From: a virus
DNA length: 64,000 bases
Direction: 5' to 3' (one strand)
Virus record (IMG/VR): IMGVR_UViG_3300034104_005687
Span: 248,001 to 312,000 of that record
The first letter of the stretch is position 1. Each line of letters starts with the position of its first letter. Shown in pieces: positions 21,244 through 52,759 of this stretch. Made by a program: the position numbers and the translations under genes. The notes under the pieces were generated by a model, which saw only the letters and a program-made list of their open reading frames with translations, was not told where the DNA came from and ran no database searches.

Positions 21244-22203
21244 ATGATCAAGAAATTTCTACTTGCCTTGTTGCTGGTGCCTGCTTTGGCCACTGCTTGG
21301 CAACCCACAAAACCAGTTACTGTGGTATTCCCCAATGGCCCCGGGGCCGGAAACGAAATATCATTTCGTATTGTAGCAGACATTGTGGAACGGAAAACTG
21401 GAGCCAAATTCAATTCTGAATATCGCCCAGGAGCTGACGGCAACATTGCTATCAATCACTTTGTGACAACTCCCCGCGATGGACACACCATTAGTGTGCC
21501 TGCTTGCCAATCAAATTGGGTCACACCTGAAATCTGGTATCCCAACATGATCAAGTACAGCCCAATGGATCTGGAACCCATTGCCAACATTGCTCGCTCA
21601 CCCCTAGCATTTTGGGCACATCCGTCAAGCAAGATCAACACTCCGGAAGAGTTTGTTGCAGCCATTCGTAATAAGCAACGAATGACTGTGGCTATTGGCG
21701 GTGGCGGGCACAAGCTGGCAGTGGAATATCTTGTGGACAAGGTCAGTGTGGCTGGCAGTGATAACTTACAAACTGCTATGTACAAAGGTCCAGCACAGGC
21801 CCTGTTGGATGTCATGGGCGGGCACGTGGAATTTGGCGTAACTCCCGTGGCAGTGGGATATCCTCATGTACAAGCAGGCAAACTCAAGTTCATTGGCATT
21901 GCTGATACACGCCCACTGCCAGGGTTGGAGCACATTCCTTTGATGAGCAAAGCAGCGCCAGGACTCAGCATACACGGCTGTTGGAACATGGTATTGCCAC
22001 CAGGTACACCCCTTGAAATCCAAGCATGGTATCGTGATCAGTTTGTGCCTGCAATTCGCAGTGCAGACGCTGCTGTGAAGTTTCGTGAAAACATGATGTA
22101 CATTACGCCAGAAGAACACAGTGCCGCAGGTGTTAGAGTCAGCATGGCACGTTTGCAGCAGACATGGCAACCCATTGCTCGCAGAATTGATCCCAACAAA
22201 TGA
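21244..22203 (+). CDS. TctC/Bug-type periplasmic solute-binding protein
   Basis: 319 residues. The signal peptide MIKKFLLALLLVPALATAW is followed by KPVTVVFPNGPGAGNEISFR, the ligand-loop signature of tripartite tricarboxylate transporter receptors (TctC/Bug). YRPGADGNIAI and the VGYPHVQAGKLKFIGIADTRP region also match. TctC proteins bind carboxylates in the periplasm and deliver them to TctAB; no TctA or TctB is encoded here, so it would work with host permeases. Good AAGGAG ribosome binding site (21231-21236) and a weak TTGATA/TACTAT promoter. A host-derived auxiliary metabolic gene; the family is greatly expanded in Betaproteobacteria. Confidence 0.85.
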   Translation: MIKKFLLALLLVPALATAWQPTKPVTVVFPNGPGAGNEISFRIVADIVERKTGAKFNSEYRPGADGNIAINHFVTTPRDGHTISVPACQSNWVTPEIWYPNMIKYSPMDLEPIANIARSPLAFWAHPSSKINTPEEFVAAIRNKQRMTVAIGGGGHKLAVEYLVDKVSVAGSDNLQTAMYKGPAQALLDVMGGHVEFGVTPVAVGYPHVQAGKLKFIGIADTRPLPGLEHIPLMSKAAPGLSIHGCWNMVLPPGTPLEIQAWYRDQFVPAIRSADAAVKFRENMMYITPEEHSAAGVRVSMARLQQTWQPIARRIDPNK

Positions 22204-22829
22204 AATATATCTTTGTAGCCGGTGCTCCGGGCTCTAAATGGAGCAGCGTGGTCAAAAACATCTATTACTCACCCAGTATCGATCAAAGTGACTACCGAGA
22301 CGAGTGGACCTATTATCACGATGCGTCTGGCCAGCGCGAACTCATGCATTTGGGTGCATACTGGGATCCAGGCATGGCATGCGACCTGCCCGCGGATCTC
22401 ACTACACTTACACAACAACAACTGGAGGAAAAATTCAATGAACCATTCAACCAGGATTCTGCAGGAATCCGAATCATCAAAAGCCATATCTTCTCGTATG
22501 AACAAAATATCAGATACCTGCGTCAGCAGTTCGTAGATTGTGCCATTGTGCTGGTTCATCGCAGCGATGATGCTTGCCTGGGTTGGTGGGTAAAGTGCGG
22601 ACACTTTGACATCACTTACCCCAGTTATGCAGGTTACTATCAAAACTTAAAAAATATGGCCAGCATAATTAAACAGCAAAATACAGGTATACGTCAGGCC
22701 TGGACTCACTACACAGGTTCTGAACCACAGACCAATAGACTGCTGGCTACTGAGCTGGGTATTGAAACGCCACCATTGGAATACATACAAGACTACCACA
22801 TGAGCAACATCAAGGTAAAAGTAATATGA
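22200..22829 (+). CDS. Sulfotransferase-like P-loop protein
   Basis: 209 residues. MKYIFVAGAPGSKWSSVVKNI is a P-loop/PSB-like start as in phage sulfotransferase-like proteins. IRIIKSHIFSYEQNIRYL and CAIVLVHRSDDACLGWW provide the HxF and 3'-phosphate-binding-like strand. ATGA-coupled with TctC and with the oxygenase gene. Reaction proposed: transfer of sulfate from PAPS to a glycan or small molecule; a nucleotide-kinase fold cannot be excluded. Confidence 0.45.
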   Translation: MKYIFVAGAPGSKWSSVVKNIYYSPSIDQSDYRDEWTYYHDASGQRELMHLGAYWDPGMACDLPADLTTLTQQQLEEKFNEPFNQDSAGIRIIKSHIFSYEQNIRYLRQQFVDCAIVLVHRSDDACLGWWVKCGHFDITYPSYAGYYQNLKNMASIIKQQNTGIRQAWTHYTGSEPQTNRLLATELGIETPPLEYIQDYHMSNIKVKVI

Positions 22830-23476
22830 CACAAAGCAACTGGGAAATAACAAGACAACGCAGTCAATATCATTTTGACAACAGCCGAATGGACCCACGT
22901 TGGGACACTGTACAACAGCTGGGACACATTGCGCCCTGTTGGCATGCGGAATTATCTGAAGCTATCGCAGCATCAACACCAGTGACTTGGCGCACTCGTG
23001 GTCGAGACAACGATCCACTGAAACGTGCATCAGAGGAATACGATCAAGAAGATTATGATCTAGAACAGCAGGGCTATGGTCGAGATCACATTGTTACAGA
23101 CTTGAACTACAACCTGGCACCTGTGTTTCAGCACATTGCTGATCAGTTTGCCTTGGACAAAAGCATGGCTCGCATACACGTACAACGCCCAGGACAGACC
23201 TGGAACCTACACTTAGACAAGCTGGAAAAATGGATGCCAGCAGATCCCAGTCAGGTAGTACGATACTTTGTGCAACTCACAGACTGGCAACCTGGACATT
23301 TTTGGAGTTATGGCAATTACAACTGGTCAGGTTGGCGTGCTGGAGATGTTTCAACTTTTGACTGGGTCAATGTGCCCCATGCAACAGCCAATGCAGGACA
23401 TGTGCCCAGAGCAACACTGCAGATCACCGGAATTAAAACCGCTGCCACAGACACTTTCTTAAATAGTATACTATGA
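22826..23476 (+). CDS. 2OG-Fe(II) oxygenase / Asp-beta-hydroxylase-like
   Basis: 216 residues. MARIHVQRPGQTWNLHLDKLE supplies the HxD iron ligands (HLD). WSGWRAGDVSTFDWVNVPHATANAG supplies the distal His, and the following R(ATLQITG) fits the 2-oxoglutarate Arg. This is the double-stranded beta-helix dioxygenase arrangement (aspartyl/asparaginyl hydroxylase type). Coupled by ATGA to both neighbours, so it works in the same operon as the sulfotransferase-like and APS-kinase-like proteins. Substrate unknown. Confidence 0.6.
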   Translation: MTQSNWEITRQRSQYHFDNSRMDPRWDTVQQLGHIAPCWHAELSEAIAASTPVTWRTRGRDNDPLKRASEEYDQEDYDLEQQGYGRDHIVTDLNYNLAPVFQHIADQFALDKSMARIHVQRPGQTWNLHLDKLEKWMPADPSQVVRYFVQLTDWQPGHFWSYGNYNWSGWRAGDVSTFDWVNVPHATANAGHVPRATLQITGIKTAATDTFLNSIL

Positions 23477-24270
23477 AACAACCTCAACGTATTCTTATCA
23501 TGGGCCTGCCCGGTGCAGGCAAAACATATCTAGCTCAACAACTAAAGCAACAGCTTGAAAGTCACGGATCTACTGTAGGCTGGCTCAACGCCGACGAAGT
23601 TCGACGTCATTACAACGACTGGGATTTCAGTCGTGAAGGGCGTATACGTCAAAGCCTGCGTATGCGTGATCTTGCTGATGAAAGCAACACAGACTATGTA
23701 ATTGTGGACTTTGTGGCCCCACTGCCCGAAATGCGTCACAACTTCAAAGCTGATTGGTGTATCTGGATGGATACCATTGATGCAGGACGCTACGAAGACA
23801 CCAACAAGATGTTTGTGGAACCTGATGTTTACGATTTCCGTATTACAGAACAGGCAGCAGAAAAATGGTCAGAGTTTGTGGCCGAGCACATCCAGGACAA
23901 TCGTCGCAGACCTGTGTTTGACTGGCAGCGAGAAACAGTTCAAATGCTGGGACGTTGGCAACCATGGCATACAGGCCATCGTGCACTGTTTGAACGTGCT
24001 ATTGCCAAAACAGGGCAAGTTGTGATTCAAATCCGTGACTGCCAAGGCTGGCAAGGGTCAAACCCATTTGCTATAGAACAGGTCAAAAGTTACATACGCA
24101 GAGATCTAGATCCTTTGTATCAGGGACAATACGAAATACAAGTTGTGCCCAATATTGTGAACATTACCTATGGGCGAGATGTTGGTTACAAAATTGAACA
24201 AGAAGTATTTGATGATGCTACTCATTCAATAAGTGCTACTAAAATACGCCGGAGCATGGGGCTTGAATGA
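23473..24270 (+). CDS. APS-kinase-like / nucleotidyltransferase fusion
   Basis: 265 residues in two parts. Residues 1-150: ILIMGLPGAGKTYLAQQL (Walker A), GWLNADEVRRHYNDWDFSREGRIRQSLRM and DYVIVDFVAPLPEMR, the order seen in adenylylsulfate kinase (CysC). Residues 155-265: QMLGRWQPWHTGHRALFERA (HxGH nucleotidyltransferase motif), then SISATKIRRSM (ISATxIR), as in NMN adenylyltransferase-like enzymes rather than ATP sulfurylase. APS kinase would make PAPS, the donor for the three sulfotransferase-like proteins nearby; the second domain may instead adenylylate a different substrate. Confidence 0.7.
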   Translation: MKQPQRILIMGLPGAGKTYLAQQLKQQLESHGSTVGWLNADEVRRHYNDWDFSREGRIRQSLRMRDLADESNTDYVIVDFVAPLPEMRHNFKADWCIWMDTIDAGRYEDTNKMFVEPDVYDFRITEQAAEKWSEFVAEHIQDNRRRPVFDWQRETVQMLGRWQPWHTGHRALFERAIAKTGQVVIQIRDCQGWQGSNPFAIEQVKSYIRRDLDPLYQGQYEIQVVPNIVNITYGRDVGYKIEQEVFDDATHSISATKIRRSMGLE

Positions 24271-24466
24271 TACTACTGCTAGAAGTTTAGTAAAAACCGT
24301 GACATGGAGAGTCACTGGATCGACTGCTACATTTCTGATTGCGTATGCAATGACTGGCAACTTTGCTGTTGCTGGCGTGATAGGGGTGACTCAAATGATA
24401 TCTAACACCATTCTGTACTATATTCACGAGCGGGCATGGAATCGCATTACATGGGGAGTAAAATGA
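24233..24466 (+). CDS. DUF2061 membrane protein
   Basis: Up to 77 residues. A GTG at 24233 gives a 38-nt overlap with the previous gene; an in-frame TTG at 24263 would shorten it by 10 residues. Sequence ARSLVKTVTWRVTGSTATFL, then IGVTQMISNTILYYIHERAWNRI matches DUF2061: two transmembrane helices with the conserved W-R-x-TG-S and YYxHERxWNRI. In bacteria I recall DUF2061 next to cysC/cysN sulfate-activation genes, which agrees with its position directly behind the APS-kinase-like gene. Function unknown. Confidence 0.7.
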   Translation: MLLKYAGAWGLNDTTARSLVKTVTWRVTGSTATFLIAYAMTGNFAVAGVIGVTQMISNTILYYIHERAWNRITWGVK

Positions 24467-25320
24467 TATTGCCTAGCTTGGTGTTGCCAAGTCGCATAAA
24501 TCAGCACTGGCAATTTTCAGGAATGGATCATATTGACCAGTGCTTTGACAAGAATCATTTTTTGTCATATCCTTACAGTATAACTTACAAGTACAACAGT
24601 CGTGGGTTCCGTGATCAAGAATGGCCCGACACCATGCAAGAATTGCGCAACGCAATATGGTGTATTGGTGACAGCTTCACTGTCGGTCTGGGGTCGCCGC
24701 TGGAACACACCTGGGCATTTCGACTGTCACAGATTGCCAATCGTCGTATCATAAATGTTTCAATGGACGGTGCCAGCAATGAATGGATTGCAAGAACTGC
24801 AAAAAACATTGTTCAAGTTGTTGATCCTGCACAACTTGTAATAATGTGGAGTTACACTCATCGTCGGGAAAGCATCAAAACGTCATTGAGTGATGAATTT
24901 CGAAGAATATATAGCAGTAACTGCACTGACCACGAAGACTGGGAGAATTTCGTAGACTGTAAAAAAAGAGTTGATTTGATTGCAAACTCGGTGCAATTTG
25001 CAGTACCTTGTTTTCGTCATGAACCACCGTTGATTCATCAGAGTTGGTGGGAATCAATACGTGGCACTAACTGGCCAGCAAACCCTCCGACTACACCCCA
25101 AGAATTAAATTCATTGCCAGACTGGATATTGCATGAACTAAAAAATTTGCATGGAAGATTAGACGAATACAGAGATATTGTGACAAGACAACAGTTGTAT
25201 TCTCCACTTCCTGCTACAGTTATACAAGTTGAATCTCAAGATCTTGCTCGAGACGGTCATCATTTTGATTTGATTACAGCTGATTGGGTGGCAACTCAGG
25301 CAACGAGCCGGTTGAATTAA
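24463..25320 (+). CDS. SGNH/GDSL hydrolase
   Basis: 285 residues from the ATG at 24463, preferred over 24436 because of the ATGA overlap with the DUF2061 gene and the GGGGAG ribosome binding site at 24453. IWCIGDSFTVGLGS is a canonical block I (GDSxTxGxG), NVSMDGASNEWIARTA block III-like, and LARDGHHFDLITADWVA block V with DxxH. All catalytic Ser, Asp and His positions are therefore plausible, making it the best-preserved SGNH enzyme of the window. Its 3' end overlaps the convergent sulfotransferase-like gene by 47 nt. Confidence 0.7.
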   Translation: MILPSLVLPSRINQHWQFSGMDHIDQCFDKNHFLSYPYSITYKYNSRGFRDQEWPDTMQELRNAIWCIGDSFTVGLGSPLEHTWAFRLSQIANRRIINVSMDGASNEWIARTAKNIVQVVDPAQLVIMWSYTHRRESIKTSLSDEFRRIYSSNCTDHEDWENFVDCKKRVDLIANSVQFAVPCFRHEPPLIHQSWWESIRGTNWPANPPTTPQELNSLPDWILHELKNLHGRLDEYRDIVTRQQLYSPLPATVIQVESQDLARDGHHFDLITADWVATQATSRLN

Positions 25321-26518
25321 AGATAGAATTCCAAAATTCTGACTCTGTATGTGTTTTTTCTAACAAGTATTGATCAGTAACTGGTGACGCTGTTTCTGGG
25401 TTGGCCTGAGCCCAGTCGTTGTATATCTCGATCAACTGTTCAAAATTTCTTATTGTTTTTTGTTTTTCAGACAGTGTTTGTTTTTTGATTGGAGGCCCAC
25501 TTATCATTATACCCAACTCAATCATTTGATTTATGGTTTGTTGTGCCTGATCATATCCGTGTTTGAATTGAACCAATGCTTGCTGCTGCGGATGACTCAT
25601 CAGAGACACTACTCCTTCGTGACGTATTAGATTTTGTGCCCATTGCTGCTGTAACTCCGTTGGTAAATTAGCAATATCCTCTACAGAGTGCACTGCCGGC
25701 CAATGCTCAGGAGCGTGCTGTTGGTAATGTTTTACAACGTCAGTTTGTTCCAGTAGTAATTTGTTCAAATCGCTGGGTTTTTCCAGGGGCAAATGATTTA
25801 GATCGCTGCGAGCATAGTGCATCTTGTTCCAGTCATTGAAACTTATGCCAAAATTCTGATTCCATGTTACGCGATTAGATTGAGAGGAAAACACCGGTAG
25901 GTCAAGTATGTATTGTTCTAGTCTAGGAATATCTTTTTCGTAGTTGAAATACGAAGCAATGTCAAAATGTTGCTCGCTCCAGTCAACATACAGTTTGTAT
26001 GCATCCAACTGTCGCTCAAATACCACAGGATCCAGAGTCACTCCCGATTTGTATATTTCGTAAAATGCGTTGATTTTTTCATAGGCAGTGTATACATTTA
26101 GTTTTTTGGTAATTGTGTTCAATGTCATGCTGAGAGCGTGCTCAAACACATTGGCACGCCTACAAGCAATCACATAAAAGTTTTCATTGAGATAGTGATA
26201 AAAAGGAACTTGTTGTTCCATGGTGTCACCACGTCGACGAATATGATAATGTGCCAAGCGTGACGTTTTGTAGTGATCTACACCGTCCAACAACTCTGTT
26301 ACTTGTTGCAGTGTTTGATGATATCCCCAGTCTTTTACTGTTTTTTTGCTGACAATTTCTCGACCAAATTCAGGGCTGTAGTACTTGGCCAGTCCGTTGG
26401 TGAGTTCGTGCATGTTGATAACAGGGCGACCAAAGTCATGAAACTGCATGTAAATGGTCAGCATGCGTTGCAACAAGGTGCTGCCCACAGCATCAGGAGT
26501 GAGAATTAGAACGTTCAT
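25274..26518 (-). CDS. Large sulfotransferase-like protein
   Basis: 414 residues on the reverse strand. MNVLILTPDAVGSTLLQRML is a 5'-PSB-like loop (xxGSTxLxxxL). VDHYKTSRLAHYHIRR and YVIACRRANVFEHALSM form the RxxxFxxALS 3'-phosphate-binding motif of Stf-type sulfotransferases. The C-terminal 200 residues are helical and Gln-rich and have no recognised fold. With the APS-kinase-like gene nearby it supports a sulfation function. Confidence 0.55.
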   Translation of the reverse strand: MNVLILTPDAVGSTLLQRMLTIYMQFHDFGRPVINMHELTNGLAKYYSPEFGREIVSKKTVKDWGYHQTLQQVTELLDGVDHYKTSRLAHYHIRRRGDTMEQQVPFYHYLNENFYVIACRRANVFEHALSMTLNTITKKLNVYTAYEKINAFYEIYKSGVTLDPVVFERQLDAYKLYVDWSEQHFDIASYFNYEKDIPRLEQYILDLPVFSSQSNRVTWNQNFGISFNDWNKMHYARSDLNHLPLEKPSDLNKLLLEQTDVVKHYQQHAPEHWPAVHSVEDIANLPTELQQQWAQNLIRHEGVVSLMSHPQQQALVQFKHGYDQAQQTINQMIELGIMISGPPIKKQTLSEKQKTIRNFEQLIEIYNDWAQANPETASPVTDQYLLEKTHTESEFWNSIFNSTGSLPELPPNQL

Positions 26519-36692: not shown

Positions 36693-38162
36693 ATGACCAC
36701 AATTGTAATCATGCCTGGCGGCTTTCACCCATTTCATGCAGGACATGCTGCATTGTATCAAAGTGCGCAACAAACTTTTCCCGATGCTGAAGTGTATGTT
36801 GCTGCCACCAACGATACCAGTTCACGACCTTTTCCGTTTGCTGTAAAAGAAAAGCTGGCTCGATTAGCCGGAGTCGATACAGGTCATTTTGTACAAGTCA
36901 AATCACCGTTTAGAGCAGAAGAAATTACCGCCAAGTTTGATCCACAAAAAGATGTGTTGATCTTTGTACGCAGTGAAAAAGACGCAGCACAACCGCCACA
37001 ACCTGGTGGTGTCAAAAAAGACGGGTCGCCTAGCTACTTGCAGCCTTTGTTGGGTGCTCGAAAGCTAGAACCATTTGCAAAACATGCCTACATGGCATAC
37101 TTGCCCACTGTGGAGTTTGGTCCTGGCATGACGTCGGCCACTGAGATTCGTAGTGCATGGCCCCGGCTAAACGAAAAACGCAAAACAGCTCTTGTGATGA
37201 GCCTGTACCCTAAAACGCAAACGAACCCTAAGTTGGCACAAACTGTGGTCAAACTGTTGGACACAGCATTAGGTGTAGTAGATGAGAGTGCGCTGGATAA
37301 CCTTCCACGCCCAAACAAACGTAATCAATTCAAGAGTCTACACAAACAAAGAAAACAACGTGGACTAGACGAGCAAGGTGTGGCGGAAGGCGTTCCTCAA
37401 CCTGGTAAATCATCTGGCAAACCTATATCCTGGATTGATCCTACCAAAGTTGTAACAGAATATCTAACGCTAGATGAGATATTCAAGTCAGTATCAGGCA
37501 TACCATACTATAACAATGTTGTAACAGATAGAGATAATAAAGACTTTACTTGGGGAGTAACTAAAAGAGTAATTCAATATGCAAAAGAATTAGTCATACG
37601 ACCCGATGCCTATAAAAACTGGCCTCCTATAATAGTTTTAGATGGCAAATTACAAGACGGGGCACATCGCATATCCACTATATACTTGATGCAACAAAGA
37701 GTTCAGCCAAATAACCCAATTTGGAAAAACGCTAAACTAAAAGTAGAATTTGGTACATCAGATAATGTAAAGCAAGGTGTGGCGGAAGGCAACGATGATA
37801 TCTGGGGACCGCAAGGAAACTTTGCTGGAGATATCAAAATAGATGTTGGCACAGCAAGCATGAAAAAAATACAAGCTGGTGATACTGTAAAGTATTTTGG
37901 AGAAACAGCACAAGTAATTGAACTAGATCCAGACAAAAACTATGCTCGAATCTCAGCCAATGGCAAGACTCTGAATGTGCGTTTATCTGACTTAAAACAG
38001 TTAGGTCGAGGTGTAGGCGAAAACCAAGGTTGGGCTGCTACCTTTACCAACGAAGACGACTACATAGAAGAAAAGTGGAGCAGCAAGTACAAAAACAGCA
38101 TCAACTGTGCTGCACCACGAGGATTCAGTCAACGTGCTCACTGTGCTGGCCGCAAAAAATAA
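36693..38162 (+). CDS. Nucleotidyltransferase plus GVAEG-bounded ParB-like cassette
   Basis: 489 residues in modules. 1-195: cytidylyltransferase-like domain with MPGGFHPFHAGHAALY (HxGH) and GMTSATEIRSAW (ISxTxIR equivalent). 228-233 and 361-366: identical QGVAEG peptides encoded by the same 20-bp DNA. Between them (234-360) lies a ParB/sulfiredoxin-like domain, NWPPIIVLDGKLQDGAHR (DGxHR motif). 370-445: small beta domain (IQAGDTVKYFGETAQVIELD), then RGVGENQG, a weak third site. The C-terminus (KSINCAAPRGFSQRAHCAGRKK region) is a basic Cys-containing tail. E-G bonds in GVAEG fit prohead-protease-like sites, so it may be a processed polyprotein; inference. Confidence 0.6.
   Translation: MTTIVIMPGGFHPFHAGHAALYQSAQQTFPDAEVYVAATNDTSSRPFPFAVKEKLARLAGVDTGHFVQVKSPFRAEEITAKFDPQKDVLIFVRSEKDAAQPPQPGGVKKDGSPSYLQPLLGARKLEPFAKHAYMAYLPTVEFGPGMTSATEIRSAWPRLNEKRKTALVMSLYPKTQTNPKLAQTVVKLLDTALGVVDESALDNLPRPNKRNQFKSLHKQRKQRGLDEQGVAEGVPQPGKSSGKPISWIDPTKVVTEYLTLDEIFKSVSGIPYYNNVVTDRDNKDFTWGVTKRVIQYAKELVIRPDAYKNWPPIIVLDGKLQDGAHRISTIYLMQQRVQPNNPIWKNAKLKVEFGTSDNVKQGVAEGNDDIWGPQGNFAGDIKIDVGTASMKKIQAGDTVKYFGETAQVIELDPDKNYARISANGKTLNVRLSDLKQLGRGVGENQGWAATFTNEDDYIEEKWSSKYKNSINCAAPRGFSQRAHCAGRKK
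37372..37391 (+). repeat. Cassette direct repeat, copy 1
   Basis: AGCAAGGTGTGGCGGAAGGC; encodes QGVAEG. Identical to copies 2 and 3 and 19/20 to copy 4. Left boundary of the first ParB-like cassette. Confidence 0.85.
37771..37790 (+). repeat. Cassette direct repeat, copy 2
   Basis: Same 20 bases as copy 1, exactly 399 bp (133 codons) downstream, in the same reading frame. Recombination between the two would delete the cassette without a frameshift. Confidence 0.85.
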
Positions 38163-39162: not shown

Positions 39163-42100
39163 ATGAACCTCCATGAGTTAGATTCCTACAACCTTGCAGA
39201 TGCAGTAAAATTCCACAATCGCCTTAACCCGCGGTTGTGGGACAAAACTGAACATCTGTTGCCCGAAGTACACAACAAACTGCTGGAAATAGCAGCCGAT
39301 TTTCAAGAATTTTTGGGTGTGCCTGATCTAGACGTAGTGGATGTCACAGTGTCAGGATCCAATGCAGCCTACAGTTATACCCCACACAGTGACATTGACC
39401 TGCATCTTGTGGTGCAAATGCCAGAGCAAAACAGCGAAGTATTTCAAGAACTTTTCAACGCCAAAAAATATCAGTACAACGATGAACACGACATACGCAT
39501 AGGGGGTGCTGATGTTGAACTCTATGTTCAACCTGCGGATCAAAAACATCATAGTCTAGGAATCTACAGTGTCAAAAACAATGACTGGGTCCAGGTACCA
39601 CGCAGACGCAAAATAGAACTAGACGACCAGTGCGTGGCTCATAAAACTGAAGATCTGGCAGCCAGGATTGATCAAGCTGTGGCATCCGGCAGCGAAGAAA
39701 CCATGCAGCGTTTGTGGGACAAAATTAAGACCATGCGTCAGACTGGGCTAGAGCAAGCCGGCGAGTTTGGCTGCGATAACTTGGTATTCAAAATGCTGCG
39801 TCGTTCTGGACACATCGAACGTTTAACGCAAGCCAAGACACAGGCTCATGATCGTGAGCTCAGTCTCACAGAAAAGAAAAAACGCAAGAAGGCCAAAAAG
39901 AAATTTACCTATGGTGCGTTTGGTGGCTGGTTCTATCCAGGCTACAACTTTGGCGCAGGCGAAACCGGTGATGCTGGTGGCGGAGACGGCGGTGGAGAAA
40001 GTGTACGCGAAGTTGATTCAGGCATTGCACAAGGCAGCGCCATTGGTGACGCTGGTGCACAAAGCACATGGGACGGGGTAAGTCCTGACACTGACGAATA
40101 TCTCAGTGAAGAAGCCGAAGCCGAAAGCATTGTGCGTGATTTCATTAGAGACACTGCTCGCCGACTGAACATTCAGAAACTACCGCGTGTGCGACTACAC
40201 AATGATGACAGCTGGAGCGAAAATGCCGGCAGCTTTGGCAGATACGTACCTGAAACACACGAACTACATGTGAACATGGCCGATCGCCACATCATGGACA
40301 TATTGCGTACCACTGCACACGAATTGGCACATTGTAGACAGCACGAACTGTCGCCGTTGCCTGCTGATGCTGGCAACACTGGCAGTCGTTGGGAAAATCA
40401 AGCACATGCCACAGCTGGTGTGATCATGCGTGATTATGCTGATGCACATCCAGAAATGTTTGACAAATCTGCTGTAACTGAAAGCTCAGGTTACATTCCC
40501 ACTGACGCAGAAAAGAACGATCCACGCTTTGTGATGGCCTTGAGTCCAGATGTTCGTCCAGGCGCAACAGGCAAGAATGCCAACAAGATGGCGTTGAGGA
40601 CCAATGCACAAGGTCAGCCACAATTGGCCAAGACCAATGGCCTAGTAGAAAGCCTGCGTCGAGAGTTTGCTCTCCTAGAGGATGAATTTCTAGGCGAAAT
40701 CAAAATGACCAGCAAGAATCTGCGAGCTGAAGCCGCCAAGACTGGTGCTATAGCTGGCATGGAATTTGAAATGATTGTGCCCAACACTGAAGGCAACGAT
40801 GACGGTGACTTGGAACCCGACTATGACGCAGACCAACGCTGCCGTAGCATAGATGATGCTGTGGAGTTTTTCTATGACGGCGACTACAATGGCCGTAGAG
40901 ATGTTGAAAACCTACGTGCAAGAATGAACAACGATTTCCAGGAATGGCGTGATGATAAAATTGGCAATGATTGGGATACGGATGGGGATGATTATGTGCG
41001 TGAGTGGGTTGCCAACAATGTAGACGAATCAGAATGGAACAACAATGAAGATGATCCTGAAGCTTCGCGTGAAGAAAAATTAGACAACTTTGCTGCTAAT
41101 GTTTACAATGATCCCGGCAGTAATTACCATCAACAAGCATTTGATGAGTTCCGAGAAGAAAATCAAGACTCATATGACGAAAGTGACTGGTTAGACGCTG
41201 AAGACCTAGATCGCATGAGCGGTGTTGAAAACGCCTATGATATTTCTTGGCCGCACTGGACCAGCGGTGGCGGCGGTGGCGAAGCCAGTATTGAAGATGT
41301 AGCACAAGAGTTTGAAAATGCCATAGGCCGTGACGTTCGAGCCAGTGGCAGCTATCATTCAGGACGAGTACAAAGACCCAGCCCTACACAACAACACTAT
41401 GTGGTCGAGCCCGATGGCAGTTTGGAGCCGGATGATACCAATGATCAAGGCCTGGAGTTTGTAAGTCCGCCCCTGCCCATTGACGATATACTAAGTGACT
41501 TGAACAAAGTCAAGGCCTGGGCCAAAGAATATGGCTGCTATACCAACGACTCAACAGGCTTGCACATCAACATCTCAGTGCCCAACTACAGCAGAGAAAA
41601 CTTGGACTTTGTAAAGTTAGCATTGTTAATGGGCGACGAGTATATCCTGGACTTGTTTGGTCGTGTTGGCAATACCTACGCTAAGTCAGCCATGAAGCTG
41701 GTCAAGGAAAAAGTACGTGAAAATCCAGATGCAGCAAAACAGTTGCTGGACAAGATGAAGGGTAACTTGGATGCACTTGCTACCAAGGCCATCCACTCAG
41801 GTATTACCAGCAAGTACACCAGCATCAACACCAAGGACGGACACATTGAATTCCGCTCACCTGGTGGTGACTGGCTGGATGACAACTTTGACAAGATTGA
41901 AAACACCCTGTTACGATTCACAGTGGCCATGAGTGCGGCACTGAATCCGGATGCTTATCGTCAAGAGTATCAAAAGAAACTTTACAAATTGTTGACTGCG
42001 GACCAAAAGGATTCAGACACAATCAAGTATTTTGCACAATATGCTGCTGGTGAGCTACCCAAGGCTGCCTTGCGTAGTTTTGTTAAGCAAGCACAACTAG

Positions 42101-43389
42101 AGCGCAAGGTAAAACGCGGCGAAACAATCAATCAAAAAATGTGGTGGAGCGTTACCAATCCCCCGCAAAGTTCTGCCGGTATAGAAGTTGTTGCTACCTC
42201 TAAAGAAGAAGCCATTGCCCAAGCCCTGGGACCAGATGGCTATCCTGGCTGGGCCAACACACGACAATCAGTTGTGGCCAAGCCTTTGCGTCCATTTGAA
42301 GACACCAGTTTGGACAAACCTTTTGTATGGAAAGTTCAAGGCACTGATTCTCCATATCAAAGACAAGGTATAGAAGTTGTTGCTTTTAGTGAGCTCGAAG
42401 CAATGCAAAAAGCCAGACGACGATGGAATTTAAACATAGGTACAACCCCAGAACAAGAATTCTTTAGAACCAACCGTTGGATTGCTACCACTGTTCGTCC
42501 TGCTGAAGAACCTGAACAAGATCAAGACAGTGCAACAACTGGCAACTGGGGAGCTTATGTAACGGTGCTTGATCGGTTTGCAGAATTCAACGACCAAGGT
42601 ACCACCCGTACTAGGAGATTCAGAGACCAGGCAGCAGCTGAGTCCTGGATACAGAATTATAATATAAGGTACCCTAGAAATGATCTTGAATTGACTGCTC
42701 GAGAGCTTGAACCTTCTGAACAAGCGCCGCAGTCTGGCCGTGCTGCCACAAGCCCAACAGGACAGTGGAAAATGGTTGATGGTTTAAATCGTGAAGTATA
42801 TCGTTTCCGTCCTGCAGAGAATACTAGAGCCAAAGCCAATGAGTTAGCCTCACTATGGGCACGGGAAAACAACTTTGATGGCAATTATCAAGTTGAACCT
42901 GCGGAAGATACTGCACAAACAGATACGAACCCACTAACACCAACAGGCTCTGGACCCTGGGAAGTAGCCAGCAGAAGCAACAATCAAGTTTATTACAACC
43001 CACCAAGCAGTAATCCTATTGAAGCAGAGTCACAATCAAGAACGTGGTTAAGACAAAACGATCACAACGAATCAGACTTTGAAGTACGAACTCGAGAAGG
43101 TGTTGGTGGCACAGACACAGCACAAGGTGGTATCATTGATATTGAACCAGATATATCACAATACAATGCACCACAAACACTGACCCGCCCTGGGCAAGAT
43201 CAGCAGGTGTTTACAGGCCAATGGAAAGTAACACTCGATGGCGAAGAGATTCATCGCTTTGGCGGCATTGGTAACAATCAAATGGATGCAAATCGTGTTG
43301 GCCGTGAATGGGCACGTAATCAAATACGTCAAGGATTATTATATCCTGCGGGCGATATCGAAGTCTTTCCAGTAATGGGAAATGCCTAA
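39163..43389 (+). CDS. Multi-enzyme protein: polbeta-NTase, zincin, amidoligase-like, repeats
   Basis: 1408 residues. Leader MNLHELDSY resembles the other packaged-type starts. Residues 60-165: polbeta-like nucleotidyltransferase, GSNAAYSYTPHSDIDLHL (G65-S66, D77/D79). About 238-250: basic patch KKKRKKAKKK. 330-440: zinc peptidase with HELAH (H386, E387, H390). 525-920: putative amidoligase (COOH-amine ligase) signature, GMEFEM (532-536), TGLHINIS (G799, H801) and HIEFRSPGGDW (H894, R898). 990-1405: about six repeats of 45-50 residues, W-x-V...EAxxxAxxW. Internal EFALLEDEFLGE (about 500-515) could be a processing site. A combination of this kind is unfamiliar to me; each activity is predicted from motifs only. 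Confidence 0.6.
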   Translation: MNLHELDSYNLADAVKFHNRLNPRLWDKTEHLLPEVHNKLLEIAADFQEFLGVPDLDVVDVTVSGSNAAYSYTPHSDIDLHLVVQMPEQNSEVFQELFNAKKYQYNDEHDIRIGGADVELYVQPADQKHHSLGIYSVKNNDWVQVPRRRKIELDDQCVAHKTEDLAARIDQAVASGSEETMQRLWDKIKTMRQTGLEQAGEFGCDNLVFKMLRRSGHIERLTQAKTQAHDRELSLTEKKKRKKAKKKFTYGAFGGWFYPGYNFGAGETGDAGGGDGGGESVREVDSGIAQGSAIGDAGAQSTWDGVSPDTDEYLSEEAEAESIVRDFIRDTARRLNIQKLPRVRLHNDDSWSENAGSFGRYVPETHELHVNMADRHIMDILRTTAHELAHCRQHELSPLPADAGNTGSRWENQAHATAGVIMRDYADAHPEMFDKSAVTESSGYIPTDAEKNDPRFVMALSPDVRPGATGKNANKMALRTNAQGQPQLAKTNGLVESLRREFALLEDEFLGEIKMTSKNLRAEAAKTGAIAGMEFEMIVPNTEGNDDGDLEPDYDADQRCRSIDDAVEFFYDGDYNGRRDVENLRARMNNDFQEWRDDKIGNDWDTDGDDYVREWVANNVDESEWNNNEDDPEASREEKLDNFAANVYNDPGSNYHQQAFDEFREENQDSYDESDWLDAEDLDRMSGVENAYDISWPHWTSGGGGGEASIEDVAQEFENAIGRDVRASGSYHSGRVQRPSPTQQHYVVEPDGSLEPDDTNDQGLEFVSPPLPIDDILSDLNKVKAWAKEYGCYTNDSTGLHINISVPNYSRENLDFVKLALLMGDEYILDLFGRVGNTYAKSAMKLVKEKVRENPDAAKQLLDKMKGNLDALATKAIHSGITSKYTSINTKDGHIEFRSPGGDWLDDNFDKIENTLLRFTVAMSAALNPDAYRQEYQKKLYKLLTADQKDSDTIKYFAQYAAGELPKAALRSFVKQAQLERKVKRGETINQKMWWSVTNPPQSSAGIEVVATSKEEAIAQALGPDGYPGWANTRQSVVAKPLRPFEDTSLDKPFVWKVQGTDSPYQRQGIEVVAFSELEAMQKARRRWNLNIGTTPEQEFFRTNRWIATTVRPAEEPEQDQDSATTGNWGAYVTVLDRFAEFNDQGTTRTRRFRDQAAAESWIQNYNIRYPRNDLELTARELEPSEQAPQSGRAATSPTGQWKMVDGLNREVYRFRPAENTRAKANELASLWARENNFDGNYQVEPAEDTAQTDTNPLTPTGSGPWEVASRSNNQVYYNPPSSNPIEAESQSRTWLRQNDHNESDFEVRTREGVGGTDTAQGGIIDIEPDISQYNAPQTLTRPGQDQQVFTGQWKVTLDGEEIHRFGGIGNNQMDANRVGREWARNQIRQGLLYPAGDIEVFPVMGNA

Positions 43390-48242: not shown

Positions 48243-49051
48243 AATTAATGGTAGCAGGATGTAGTTATTCAGCAGTGAGTCAGCGCATGCCTGGCACCAG
48301 CTGGAGTGAGTTGCTGGCTCAACAACTAGGCTGGGACCTGACGAATCTAGCACGACAGGGTTGCAGCAACGGGGGCATACGTGTGCAGATTGATGAAATA
48401 CTGAGGCAACGTCCTGACTTTGCTGTGATCACTCCCACGTTCTGGGACAGAATGGAAATACCAGCTTCGGCAGCACCATTTGATTGGAAAAAAAGCACAG
48501 GTGGATGGAATCCAGAAATACAGCGTCACTTGCAAGATCGCACATTAAAAAATGGCTATAATCGTGACGATGGCATCAACAACGTCAACTACGGCAACAA
48601 CAACTACAACATGATCTGCGAGACTATCTACACCTTAGCAGAAAACTTTGATCATCCTTATCGTTCAGGGCTGATCAGCAAAACATCTCAGACTGCTGTA
48701 CGACACTACATAGATGGTATATATGATTCAGAATGGAAACGGCAACAAGACGAATGGATTGTTAAGTCGGGCATTTTTGAACTGCATCATGCTGGCATTG
48801 ACTTTTTGTTTGTGCCTGTGTTGTTGTGGCCCTTTGATCCTGCGTTGGGGGCAACTCAATGGCGCAAATCAATCAGTACTGCTGTGCCTGACCGCAACGT
48901 GATGTTTGACGAACGAGAATCAATATTGCCGTTGTGTGGCAACAATCCGTTTGAAGGAGAAGATCCTGGTTACCATTCGGGTGCCCGGGGCCAACAACTC
49001 ATTGCTGACAACTACTATCGCAGAATCACACAAGATTTTGGATTAGCGTAA
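48239..49051 (+). CDS. SGNH hydrolase
   Basis: 270 residues. MKLMVAGCSYSAVSQRMPGTSW (GCSYS block I with early Ser), NLARQGCSNGGIRVQI (block II/III Gly-Asn) and YHSGARGQQLIADNYYRRI (block V His H247 or so). Coupled to the deacetylase gene (ATGA). The GCSYS form is frequent in phage SGNH proteins. Predicted carbohydrate esterase. Convergent with a reverse-strand GT gene, overlapping by 9 nt. Confidence 0.6.
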   Translation: MKLMVAGCSYSAVSQRMPGTSWSELLAQQLGWDLTNLARQGCSNGGIRVQIDEILRQRPDFAVITPTFWDRMEIPASAAPFDWKKSTGGWNPEIQRHLQDRTLKNGYNRDDGINNVNYGNNNYNMICETIYTLAENFDHPYRSGLISKTSQTAVRHYIDGIYDSEWKRQQDEWIVKSGIFELHHAGIDFLFVPVLLWPFDPALGATQWRKSISTAVPDRNVMFDERESILPLCGNNPFEGEDPGYHSGARGQQLIADNYYRRITQDFGLA

Positions 49052-50101
49052 ATGTGGCTCAATCATGCGCTGCATTTCGGAGTATTTTTCTTGACGAAAC
49101 TCATATAGCCTGTGATGATTGTGGTCCAGGATGGATCGAGCTTGCAGTAGTATTTTCTGATGGTCTTGTTGACTCAACCATTTTACTTGCTCAAATGCAG
49201 CTTGCCAACGATCAATGTCACGTTCAATGCTGTCATAGCTTTCGTCCAGTATGGAATCAAAAGTCTTGAATCCAAAGGATCGAAGTTTTTTCAACCAGTG
49301 TGCTACGCCAAAGTGCACAAACAGTCTACGAGCATGTAGGCATTTGCCAATCTTTTCTGCCATGAGATAGCAGTCTCCAGATCCCAGTGTTTCTACCAAG
49401 ATGCTGTAGTATGTGCGATTGTATATTTCCCAGGGTTCGATGCTGCTGATAGAGTTGTCAAGATGTTCTCTTACCTCCCATGCAGGATCTAGATTTGGAC
49501 TCACATAAGGCCACACAATTTTTTGATCAGGAAATTGTTGTTGTACTTTGTCAGTGGTTTCGGTGATGTTGCCACCTACAAAAATGTCTCGGTAGGTAGC
49601 AATACTGTGATTCAGCAGTCCTGATTTTTCAAGACTCAGCATCACATAGTCTCGATGTTCTCTGCGTGTGCCACACAAACAGTCAAACAAATAAGGACGT
49701 GACAGTGGAAAATCATCACGTGGTGGGTTCCACTGTAGGAAAGTAAAACTCCACCATGGACGATACACTGTACGATGAGTCAAAGTTTCAGAAGCATACA
49801 GTCCTGCTACACTCAACAGCCAGTTGTTGGCATCGGTGGTATCAATCCAGTTGATCAACTCTGTCTGCGATCTAAACTCAATATCAGTAAACAACACCAG
49901 GTCAAACTGACTCAATTGTAGATTTTCAAATTCTGGTTTGTAAGAAAATTCTGTGGGTCGATTAAAGTACACTGGCAATACTGCAATCTTGGTAGGCTGT
50001 GCCAGTGCAGTGGCTAGATCCACTATCTGTGGATAATCAAAACCCCAATCTATGGCTTGGTAGCCCGGGCTATAAATTTTGAGTTGCGAGAAATCTGTCA
50101 T
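49043..50101 (-). CDS. Glycosyltransferase-like protein
   Basis: 352 residues, reverse strand. FDYPQIVDLATALAQP opens the chain; FDCLCGTRREHRDYVMLSLE is the end of an N-terminal Rossmann-like domain. LVETLGSGDCYLMAEKIGKCLHARRLFVHFGVAHWLKKLRSFGFKTFDSILDESYD has the E-K-x-x-K/R...LRSxGFKTFDxxxDExYD pattern I know from phage and bacterial glycosyltransferase-like (GT10/fucosyltransferase-like) proteins. ATGA overlap with the next reverse gene. Confidence 0.5.
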   Translation of the reverse strand: MTDFSQLKIYSPGYQAIDWGFDYPQIVDLATALAQPTKIAVLPVYFNRPTEFSYKPEFENLQLSQFDLVLFTDIEFRSQTELINWIDTTDANNWLLSVAGLYASETLTHRTVYRPWWSFTFLQWNPPRDDFPLSRPYLFDCLCGTRREHRDYVMLSLEKSGLLNHSIATYRDIFVGGNITETTDKVQQQFPDQKIVWPYVSPNLDPAWEVREHLDNSISSIEPWEIYNRTYYSILVETLGSGDCYLMAEKIGKCLHARRLFVHFGVAHWLKKLRSFGFKTFDSILDESYDSIERDIDRWQAAFEQVKWLSQQDHQKILLQARSILDHNHHRLYEFRQEKYSEMQRMIEPHLR

Positions 50102-51114
50102 GGTTTCCAGGCCTTGTAAGTGTTACCAAACTTTTGAGTTAGGTGTTGGTCGTCTGCAGCACTGCGTCCTAACCAATGTTGATCAGGCTGTCCAGGGCAT
50201 ATTTCTTCCATAATTGAAGTCTTGATCACACCCGTAGCTTCAGAAAGCCTTTGCCGTATCTGATCCATCCACTGATCAAAGTTCTCAATTTCTTTTTTAT
50301 CCCAATCAAATCGCACACTGCGGTTAAGATCGGGCACAGCATCACAGATTGCTGTGTGATAGTCAGGATCAAACCCGCCAATCTTGGTCATATCATCATA
50401 CATGTACCTGTGCTGTGGCTCTGTAGAGATCTCTCTGCGACTCATGGTCCAGTTGCCCAGTAATTCGTACTCAGACAACCAGCGTATGAGTTCACCTTTG
50501 CCCCAGGGTGGCACAGTGGCTTCTCCTGGACAGTTGTCCACAATGGCGTCTAACCATTTGATGTGATGACGTTGTTCCAGGAACAGTCGTAGATCAGTGA
50601 TGTCTTGTTTGAGTACAGGCACATATTCAGAAATAAAGCAGTGAGGTGTTTGTCTTTCAATTCCCAAAGCGTTTTTGATAGTTTCGTAGTAACCCCAGCT
50701 GTGTCGTTGATTTTCCAGTACCATGTAATTCAACTTGCCGTTCTTGAACGGTTCATAATCGCGAATCAAGATACAGTCAGGGTCGTTCATGACCATGAGA
50801 TCATAATCTAGGTAATCCAAAAAAGCCATCTTGATGGCCTGTTGTCGCAGCCACCAACCCCGATAGTCATCTTCAAACACCCAGTTGTTGACTTCGGGAT
50901 ACAGTCTGTAGATTTCTGAGTCGGGCGCATAATCAAAGTTAGTGGTATCAATGCCGTATTTTTCAAATACGGGCCATAGTTCTTCTTTGGGCACAGGACT
51001 GGCAATACAGGTTCTGTCTACACCAATCAGGTGCCGGCTAAACTCTGATTGCAACGCCATCACAGCGTGCGGCACACGATAACGTGCAAGGTATACAATT
51101 TTTGCTGATGTCAT
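50098..51114 (-). CDS. Glycosyltransferase-like protein (DUF6492 type)
   Basis: 338 residues, reverse strand. FEDDYRGWWLRQQAIKMAFLDYLDYDLMVMNDPDCILIRDYEPF contains the W-x-R-QQ-x-x-K and DxD-like (DPDCILIRD) motifs of DUF6492. Similar in plan to the plus-strand gene at 46894 but more diverged. Coupled by ATGA to both neighbours in a four-gene reverse operon. Confidence 0.55.
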   Translation of the reverse strand: MTSAKIVYLARYRVPHAVMALQSEFSRHLIGVDRTCIASPVPKEELWPVFEKYGIDTTNFDYAPDSEIYRLYPEVNNWVFEDDYRGWWLRQQAIKMAFLDYLDYDLMVMNDPDCILIRDYEPFKNGKLNYMVLENQRHSWGYYETIKNALGIERQTPHCFISEYVPVLKQDITDLRLFLEQRHHIKWLDAIVDNCPGEATVPPWGKGELIRWLSEYELLGNWTMSRREISTEPQHRYMYDDMTKIGGFDPDYHTAICDAVPDLNRSVRFDWDKKEIENFDQWMDQIRQRLSEATGVIKTSIMEEICPGQPDQHWLGRSAADDQHLTQKFGNTYKAWKP

Positions 51115-51710
51115 AATATTTCTTTGAATTGATCACGATGCCACAACGACATGTTGTTGGCATCACAGTCTGTGACCTGATCCAGCGGGACAGGAAAGTT
51201 CCAGGGTGGCAACTGCCAGTTGACACCAGATGATGGAAAATGTTCTGCAGAGTATTCAATATCAACGTTTTGACCAATGTATGTTTGGTGTGTGATAAGA
51301 ATCCAAGGAACACTGCTGTTGTACCAGTTGAGCCATAATTGACGACAATCATGATTGTTGAGATGTATAGCAACATCTCTCACAAACAGCAAATCAACTT
51401 TGGGTATGGGATCTGTGGTCACATCGTGTAACACAACATCAAGCTCAGGATGGCGATGCCAAGCATCTGCAACCATGGCCAAACTGATATCGCCCCCTTG
51501 GTACTGCACAAACTGTCCCACTCTCTTCATCCAATTGCAGTCGTTACACCCAGCATCAAAAATACTGGATATATTATGTTTCTTAAAAAGTTCAATAATG
51601 TTGTCACGTAAGCGTTGTGTACCGGGCACACTACTGGCCCCTGTTAAATTGCCAGCAGTATGAGTTGGTGAATACAACTTTGAAAATATTTTTTGTAAGG
51701 TTAGATTCAT
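51111..51710 (-). CDS. SAM-dependent methyltransferase
   Basis: 199 residues, reverse strand. SSIFDAGCNDCNWMKRVG (about 50-67) is class I motif I (DxGCxxxxW), YQGGDISLAMV motif II and KVDLLFVRDVAIHLNNHD motif IV/V. In similar phage islands these act on sugars or small metabolites. Coupled by ATGA to the radical SAM gene. Confidence 0.7.
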   Translation of the reverse strand: MNLTLQKIFSKLYSPTHTAGNLTGASSVPGTQRLRDNIIELFKKHNISSIFDAGCNDCNWMKRVGQFVQYQGGDISLAMVADAWHRHPELDVVLHDVTTDPIPKVDLLFVRDVAIHLNNHDCRQLWLNWYNSSVPWILITHQTYIGQNVDIEYSAEHFPSSGVNWQLPPWNFPVPLDQVTDCDANNMSLWHRDQFKEIL

Positions 51711-52759
51711 ATCTTGTTGCAGGTTTTAACGCACTGGTATGTTCTACCTTGTGCTATGCTATTTAATTGCCATGTTTGTTCCACACGATCAAACCATTCA
51801 AGACATTGAGTCAATGGATATTCCAGTGCGTTGTTTTGATGTATCAGCGTGGCCAGTTCTTGATTACCAGGATGATTCATTTGTCCCGGATAGAATCCCA
51901 AAAAGCAACAAGGGTACACAGATCCGTTGGCGGCCACATAGATTTCTCGGTTGCGTTTGTGAATACACTGTATGTCAAGATCGGGCGTGTCCTTGGCTTC
52001 TTTGACAGTTTTGGAATCGTACCAAGTAACATGATTTTCTAACAAGGGTTTGATATCTCTAGGAGTCCCGTTGAATCCAGGATCGTTACCAATTTGATGA
52101 CTAAACTCTCCAGTGCGTGTAAATGCAGGGCCGTTGTCTCTGCCGTCGTATATGTTTTCAAACTTGGCAAACCCAAGCTGTTGTGCCATGTTTCTACAGG
52201 CCTGTTCTTGATGACGATTATGTTCAAATGGAACAAATCTCCATACTGCACGACCGCCTGCTTGGATAAAGGCAGAGGCATGTTCAATGATTCTATGCCA
52301 GTCAGTGTCTTGACGATATAAAGAATGAGTATCTGCTAGTCCGTCAATTGCCCAACCAATTTCTACTCCTGACATAGCCAATCGAGCCCACCATTCAGAG
52401 TTGCGCACACTGCCATTGGTATTGATTGCCACAGGCACGCCGTGGTCAACTAGATACTTGACTATTTCTGCGCCGTCTCGCGCTGATCCAAAATCCCCAA
52501 GATTACCGTTGAAAGAAAATCCGTGCGAGAATCCATATGACACAGGAACACGCCCGTTGACAGGAGGATCAGGCTGCATGATACTGGCCAATATTTCAGG
52601 AGTAAAAATTTGTTGAAATTGAACTAAGTTGAGTTCACACACAGGATAACCTGAATTAAAATCCATGCCTCTATAGTTGCGCATGCACATAGGACAACGA
52701 GCATTGCATCTTGTGGTTAACTCAACGTGGACTCTACGTATCTGATTTAGTTTTAACAT
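51707..52759 (-). CDS. Radical SAM / SPASM protein
   Basis: 350 residues, reverse strand. VHVELTTRCNARCPMCMRN gives the radical SAM CxxxCxxC (C18, C22, C25). FNGNLGDFGSARDGAEIVKYL and AINTNGSVRN follow the barrel pattern, and the C-terminal CIHKRNREIYVAANGSVYPCCF segment plus CLEW and CVKTC provide SPASM auxiliary-cluster Cys. The family carries out peptide or carbohydrate modification and cofactor maturation. First gene of the reverse operon, headed by an exact TATAAATA. Substrate unknown. Confidence 0.75.
   Translation of the reverse strand: MLKLNQIRRVHVELTTRCNARCPMCMRNYRGMDFNSGYPVCELNLVQFQQIFTPEILASIMQPDPPVNGRVPVSYGFSHGFSFNGNLGDFGSARDGAEIVKYLVDHGVPVAINTNGSVRNSEWWARLAMSGVEIGWAIDGLADTHSLYRQDTDWHRIIEHASAFIQAGGRAVWRFVPFEHNRHQEQACRNMAQQLGFAKFENIYDGRDNGPAFTRTGEFSHQIGNDPGFNGTPRDIKPLLENHVTWYDSKTVKEAKDTPDLDIQCIHKRNREIYVAANGSVYPCCFLGFYPGQMNHPGNQELATLIHQNNALEYPLTQCLEWFDRVEQTWQLNSIAQGRTYQCVKTCNKI

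Follow-up and report, generated by a model that had tools for sequence, protein, structure and literature searches.

What is made by a viral protein in which a kinase domain like that of CysC is joined to an HxGH nucleotidyltransferase (NT)? The question is raised by a locus of a large environmental bacterial virus, the IMG/VR virus record IMGVR_UViG_3300034104_005687, of which we have analysed bases 248001–312000 out of 349 kb (64,000 nucleotides, here called the window; positions refer to it unless a locus is named). An earlier note on this DNA had proposed that the fusion leads to 3'-phosphoadenosine 5'-phosphosulfate (PAPS) for sulfotransferases encoded close to it. The answer that we favour, by a modest balance of the sequence and gene-context evidence, is that the fusion is a compact, 265-residue, two-step PAPS synthetase, in which the NT would be the ATP sulfurylase and the kinase the adenosine 5'-phosphosulfate (APS) kinase. 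The kinase keeps the residues that contact APS, the NT is linked to the APS reductase genes aprMBA in SAR11 bacteria and the fusion is linked to sulfotransferases, and sulfate activation is the simplest reading that covers all three observations. A literature search found no paper proposing this reading, although one may still exist.

Architecture and distribution of the fusion

The fusion is a single open reading frame (ORF; 23473..24270, + strand) encoding 265 amino acids in two domains of named fold families, an APS-kinase-type domain (PF01583; 23473..23913, +) and an HxGH NT domain (23914..24270, +), in agreement with the earlier description of a P-loop/HxGH protein resembling CysC plus a nucleotidyltransferase. 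PHROG 10255, annotated as "kinase", covers the whole protein (E 3.4e-48), and its members from Stenotrophomonas, Xanthomonas and Clavibacter phages are full-length, with both domains, and 36–40% identical to the fusion; their annotations go no further than hypothetical protein, kinase or riboflavin biosynthesis protein. At least 569 viral relatives were found, together with at least 538 in bacterial genomes, chiefly of Pelagibacteraceae and also of SAR116, SAR86 and Rhizobium, a few of the cell contigs (L165 and L184) resembling phage. The cores of both domains are strongly conserved among the relatives. The two domains also occur apart: in most SAR11 loci among the matches listed, a kinase gene and an NT gene stand apart but touch or overlap, and in other SAR11 loci they are fused; some phages carry the kinase without the NT, and many SAR11 genomes the NT without the kinase. 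In a group of Pelagibacteraceae loci (L188–L244) the split genes lie in a conserved neighbourhood for which sulfation offers no explanation and whose members, named by eye, are FAD-dependent dehydrogenase-like, enoyl-CoA hydratase-like and Rieske-like proteins and electron-transfer flavoproteins.

The same joining of an APS kinase to an HxxH/HxGH nucleotidyltransferase domain is found in the known PAPS synthetases (PAPSS1/2 and the bifunctional SAT/APS kinase of Aquifex, 2gks). PAPSS1 and the phage fusion both have the kinase first, and they differ in size, the PDB chain of PAPSS1 having 630 residues as compared to 265 in the phage protein.

The kinase domain

The Pfam family PF01583 matches only residues 5–92 of the fusion, with an E-value of 9.6e-11 and 42.4 bits, above the gathering score of 21.1. 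A profile built from 65 relatives found APS kinases in the PDB (E 2.9e-15), and a Foldseek search with the AlphaFold2 model of the fusion (mean predicted local distance difference test score 90, predicted template modelling score 0.73) returned APS kinases as all of its top 50 matches. In the CysC protein of Mycobacterium tuberculosis, residues D480, R483, F492 and R497 contact the ribose, the phosphosulfate and the adenine (PMC4373884). They align with D41, R44, F52 and R57 of the fusion, which are invariant in 65 of 65 relatives, as is K17 of the P-loop (GLPGAGKT), the counterpart of CysC K456. The P-loop, the catalytic Asp, the two phosphosulfate Arg and the adenine Phe that characterize APS kinases are thus all present, and the loss of APS-binding residues, which the earlier note had named as fatal to its proposal, is not what we found. 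The lid of the kinase is reduced to GR-EDTN-x-x-F-x-x-P, where R106, K112 and F114 may be the counterparts of lid residues. Because of this shortening we regard specificity for APS, as judged from the sequence, as likely rather than settled.

The nucleotidyltransferase domain

The HxGH domain spans approximately residues 148–265, with the motifs GRWQPWHTGH, NPF, YGRDVGY and ISATKIR; R188 and the GR-VGY loop are among the residues that do not vary. Its match to the Pfam family CTP_transf_like (E 9e-4) falls slightly under the cut-off. The nearest solved structures of the NT profile are nicotinamide mononucleotide (NMN) adenylyltransferases of the NadM type (2qjt, E 2.7e-10). With these enzymes (MJ0541, 1f9a; 2qjt) the NT shares the GR-x-QP-x-H-x-GH start, the NPF motif and the IS-x-T-x-x-R end, but it differs from them in being short, in its family-specific invariant R188 and GR-VGY loop, in its ties to sulfur genes and in remaining under the NCBIfam cut-offs (26.4 bits as compared to the 181.2 of the NadM family TIGR01527). 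A role in coenzyme A synthesis, following the logic of CoaD and CoaE, was also considered, and the NT profile gave only weak CoaD-type matches.

Membership of the NT in the ATP sulfurylase (Sat) family was rejected, as PF01747 has no match in the fusion protein or anywhere in the phage record and the family did not appear in the PDB search with the NT profile. The motifs HTGH, YGRDVGY and ISATKIR do follow the same order as HRAH, VGRDHAG and ISGTKVR in Sat, and the similarity between the two proteins is limited to these HxGH, GR-loop and ISxTKxR landmarks; the match is a weak one because the HxGH and ISxTxxR landmarks are common to a wider superfamily. By sequence, therefore, the NT is not a Sat protein, and we infer that it would be a functional counterpart of Sat.

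Linkage to APS reductase in SAR11

SAR11 bacteria are the most abundant bacteria in the ocean. In 8 of the 10 Pelagibacteraceae loci that we fetched for the kinase-less NT, its gene is the immediate neighbour of aprM-aprB-aprA and shares their strand (comparison with the PDB confirmed AprB and AprA, and aprM was named by its position and likely membrane character). One such SAR11 protein has 126 residues, and the NT of the window shares 55% identity with an aprMBA-linked copy. In Allochromatium vinosum, sat is located immediately upstream of aprMBA (PMC3779200), which is the position that the NT gene occupies beside aprM-aprB-aprA in SAR11, although the SAR11 NT, unlike the A. vinosum protein, is no Sat homologue by sequence. 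Where the lone NT faces away from aprMBA, TenA-like and transporter-like genes (named by eye) recur in several loci (L368, L369, L371–L373 and L375–L377).

The linkage extends to whole genomes. Among 118 genomes of the SAR11 family, 65 have aprA, and the NT is present in 60 of these 65 as compared to 15 of the 53 that lack aprA (Fisher P 2e-13, the overlap being counted by eye from lists and the test ignoring shared ancestry and incomplete genomes). In 25 genomes the two genes lie at most about 4.5 kb apart. The canonical ATP sulfurylase (PF01747) is missing in 59 of the 65 aprA genomes, and another set, of 25 host genomes, has a Sat or CysD match in 6 and neither in 19. According to previous reports, Ca. 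P. ubique has AprBA and lacks both sat and cysDNC (PMC5069961), and ATP sulfurylase is missing from most SAR11 (PMC10356861). In SAR11 the lone NT behind AprBA would work in the reverse direction, forming ATP and sulfate from APS and pyrophosphate.

Linkage to sulfotransferases

Rhizobium sp. BK376 encodes a Sulfotransfer_2 domain joined N-terminally to a kinase-NT protein that is 44% identical to the phage fusion. Six phage loci (L014, L050, L066, L071, L081 and L156) have sulfotransferase genes above the Pfam cut-offs at about 60 nucleotides or less from the kinase genes, a second, degenerate kinase gene intervening between the sulfotransferase and the fusion in L066 and L071, and in several bacteria clear Pfam sulfotransferases flank the kinase-NT genes. 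Sulfotransferases account for 6 of 110 genes near the fusion in phages, as compared to 2 of 110 far from it, and in cells for 5 of 98 near genes as compared to at most 2 of 96 far ones. A count of sulfotransferases with six seed families gave 22 near and 6 far (P about 7e-4, where the exposure of the cell loci at far positions is an estimate and the loci are only partly independent). The second kinase-like genes (L066:4488-5381 and L071:4034-4996) carry an N-terminal region of about 165–185 amino acids, and the P-loop Lys is lost in L071; kinship of this region with the oxygenase encoded at 22826 of the window was considered and rejected, as the profile shows no relation.

In the window itself, the earlier note had pointed to three sulfotransferase-like loop proteins, of which one survives in part. 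The protein encoded at 22200..22829 (+) is a divergent P-loop protein and a candidate PAPS user: 24 of 42 members of its family match PF13469 (Sulfotransfer_3; best E 1.1e-6), while the copy of the window remains below every Pfam cut-off. K94-S95-H96 and R121 are invariant in the family; of the Arg and Ser that bind the 3'-phosphate in sulfotransferases, the Arg may be R121, and a Trp (W129) stands at the position of the Ser. Foldseek gave no significant match for its model, so the structure search that had been suggested lent it no support, and we consider 22200 weakly sulfotransferase-like, at the family level only. The other two, encoded at 25274 and 12553, were rejected as sulfotransferases since neither showed Pfam or profile similarity to them; the family of 25274 retains an Arg and a Ser at a similar place, yet matched no family, and 12553 matched no family of any kind. 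The proposed chain from an APS-kinase fusion through PAPS to a sulfotransferase is thus supported in part: by the conserved APS contacts, by the sulfotransferases that adjoin or are fused to the relatives elsewhere and by the NT of SAR11, found where ATP sulfurylase would be expected; it loses 25274 and 12553.

The DUF2061 protein

As the earlier note had seen, a small DUF2061 membrane protein lies directly behind the fusion (24233..24466, +; PF09834, E 6e-22, 78.2 bits as compared to a gathering score of 23.1). The ORF extends upstream to 24233; the likely start is a TTG at 24263, which agrees with the starts of its relatives. Of 62 non-identical phage loci, 18 have DUF2061 directly 3' of the fusion. 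When viral DUF2061 loci were taken as the starting point, 15 of 39 held a gene related to the fusion or to either of its domains; this gene overlaps DUF2061 directly in 12 of the 15, and in 9 of these 12 it encodes a kinase without NT. These counts indicate that the pairing goes beyond chance and tracks the kinase domain. A search of seven host genomes, two of which have a clear CysD, returned no DUF2061 for those two. In one group of phages (L329–L339), an APS-kinase-like gene without NT is followed directly by DUF2061, with glycosyltransferase-like genes upstream; this kinase retains the more canonical motif NKDLGFS-x-EDR.

Proposed pathway and alternative explanations

We infer both catalytic activities of the fusion as well as the use of sulfate by the NT. 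The NT would couple sulfate with the AMP moiety of ATP, giving APS and pyrophosphate as ATP sulfurylase does, and the N-terminal domain would then phosphorylate the 3'-OH of APS to form PAPS. Both in phages and in fusion-bearing bacteria, this PAPS could supply the sulfotransferase-fold enzymes encoded nearby, 22200 being the candidate here, and the acceptor might be a surface glycan; DUF2061 would perhaps serve in membrane placement. The case for sulfation by this phage is made because of the divergent 22200 and the behaviour of the fusion's relatives elsewhere, and we hold sulfation of a glycan by it as a tentative proposal, less likely than not.

Several observations weigh against the PAPS synthetase. 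APS kinases have a lid of 30 residues with Arg, Lys and a second Phe, which is longer than that of the fusion, and the kinase domain misses the cut-off of the NCBIfam family apsK (TIGR00455) by far, with 32.7 bits as compared to 138.7. The NT profile lies nearest to NadM-type enzymes, ATP sulfurylase is missing among its PDB matches, and in a direct profile comparison with Sat only the ISxTKxR motif aligns. The phage record contains no clear sulfotransferase, with no match to Sulfotransfer_1 or Sulfotransfer_3. In most SAR11 genomes the kinase/NT pair lies among genes without a recognised sulfur role, the genome linkage in SAR11 partly reflects shared ancestry, and 5 aprA genomes have neither NT nor Sat.

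Some of these features would fit a parallel donor pathway without sulfate, in which the NT couples a nucleotide with some other small group and the kinase phosphorylates the 3' position, giving a PAPS-like donor for a transferase of the sulfotransferase fold. There is a precedent in the synthesis of O-methyl phosphoramidate in Campylobacter, which involves the CysC-like Cj1415 and the cytidylyltransferase Cj1416. Such a pathway would account for an NT unlike ATP sulfurylase and for the altered lid, and it predicts the same sulfotransferase-fold gene neighbourhood; however, the two arginines holding the phosphosulfate in CysC are kept without exception and the NT is tied to genes of APS reductase, of which APS is the product, so that we consider it unlikely. 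It is also conceivable that the kinase makes PAPS from APS of the host and that the NT serves some other purpose, with expression as the sole reason for their being joined. Phage kinases without NT do exist, with DUF2061 behind them, and the kinase-less NT is common in SAR11, but the split SAR11 genes touch or overlap, the fusion is conserved across phages and several bacterial groups and the lone NT adjoins APS reductase, all of which makes this separation of roles quite improbable. Finally, NAD salvage of the NadR kind, with the NT as NMN adenylyltransferase and the kinase acting on nicotinamide riboside or NAD, is suggested by the NadM-type relatives of the NT and by a kinase-NT order reminiscent of NadR-like fusions, but we give it little credence because the kinase matches APS kinases and no ribosylnicotinamide kinase, because NadD is present in 111 of the 118 SAR11-family genomes with or without the NT, which is thus not required as sole NMN adenylyltransferase, and because the linkage to aprMBA and sulfotransferases would be left unexplained.

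Other genes of the window

The fusion belongs to a run of six + strand genes (21244–25320) arranged head to tail with overlaps, in the order TctC-type binding protein, 22200, the 22826 oxygenase, the fusion, DUF2061 and an SGNH-like hydrolase; the gene at 25274 lies on the opposite strand. The putative 2-oxoglutarate-Fe(II) oxygenase (22826..23476, +), which the earlier note had rightly placed in the same operon, shares 4 nucleotides with the 22200 gene and 4 with the fusion. It has no Pfam match, and its HxD, PH and R motifs are kept across 71 relatives; 12 of 62 phage loci have a relative of it at most 1.2 kb away from the fusion. The operon starts with a TctC-type periplasmic binding protein (21244–22203, +; PF03401, E 1e-21), unusual for a phage, and 14 of 62 loci have related proteins close to the fusion. 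Immediately 3' of DUF2061 there is an SGNH/GDSL-like hydrolase with weak matches (24436–25320, +), and near the phage fusions GDSL lipases are the second most frequent family (5 of 110). Farther away, the window encodes a second nucleotidyltransferase-like protein of 489 amino acids with a weak CTP_transf_like match (36693–38162, +), a putative amidoligase domain within a 1408-residue protein (39163–43389, +; PF12224, E 1.3e-8) and a minus-strand block for a DUF6492 protein and a radical-SAM-like protein (49043–52759).

Conclusions

We give an even chance to the wider proposal that the NT is a minimal, hitherto unrecognised ATP sulfurylase derived from NadM-like stock, the one that SAR11 has been missing, and that the fusion is a PAPS synthetase of less than half the usual size, widespread among aquatic phages and accompanied in some of them by sulfotransferases. 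If this is true, a stated gap in the APS turnover of SAR11 would be filled, and phages would encode a complete sulfate activation next to sulfotransferases, which would represent a little explored route for altering the surfaces of hosts or virions.

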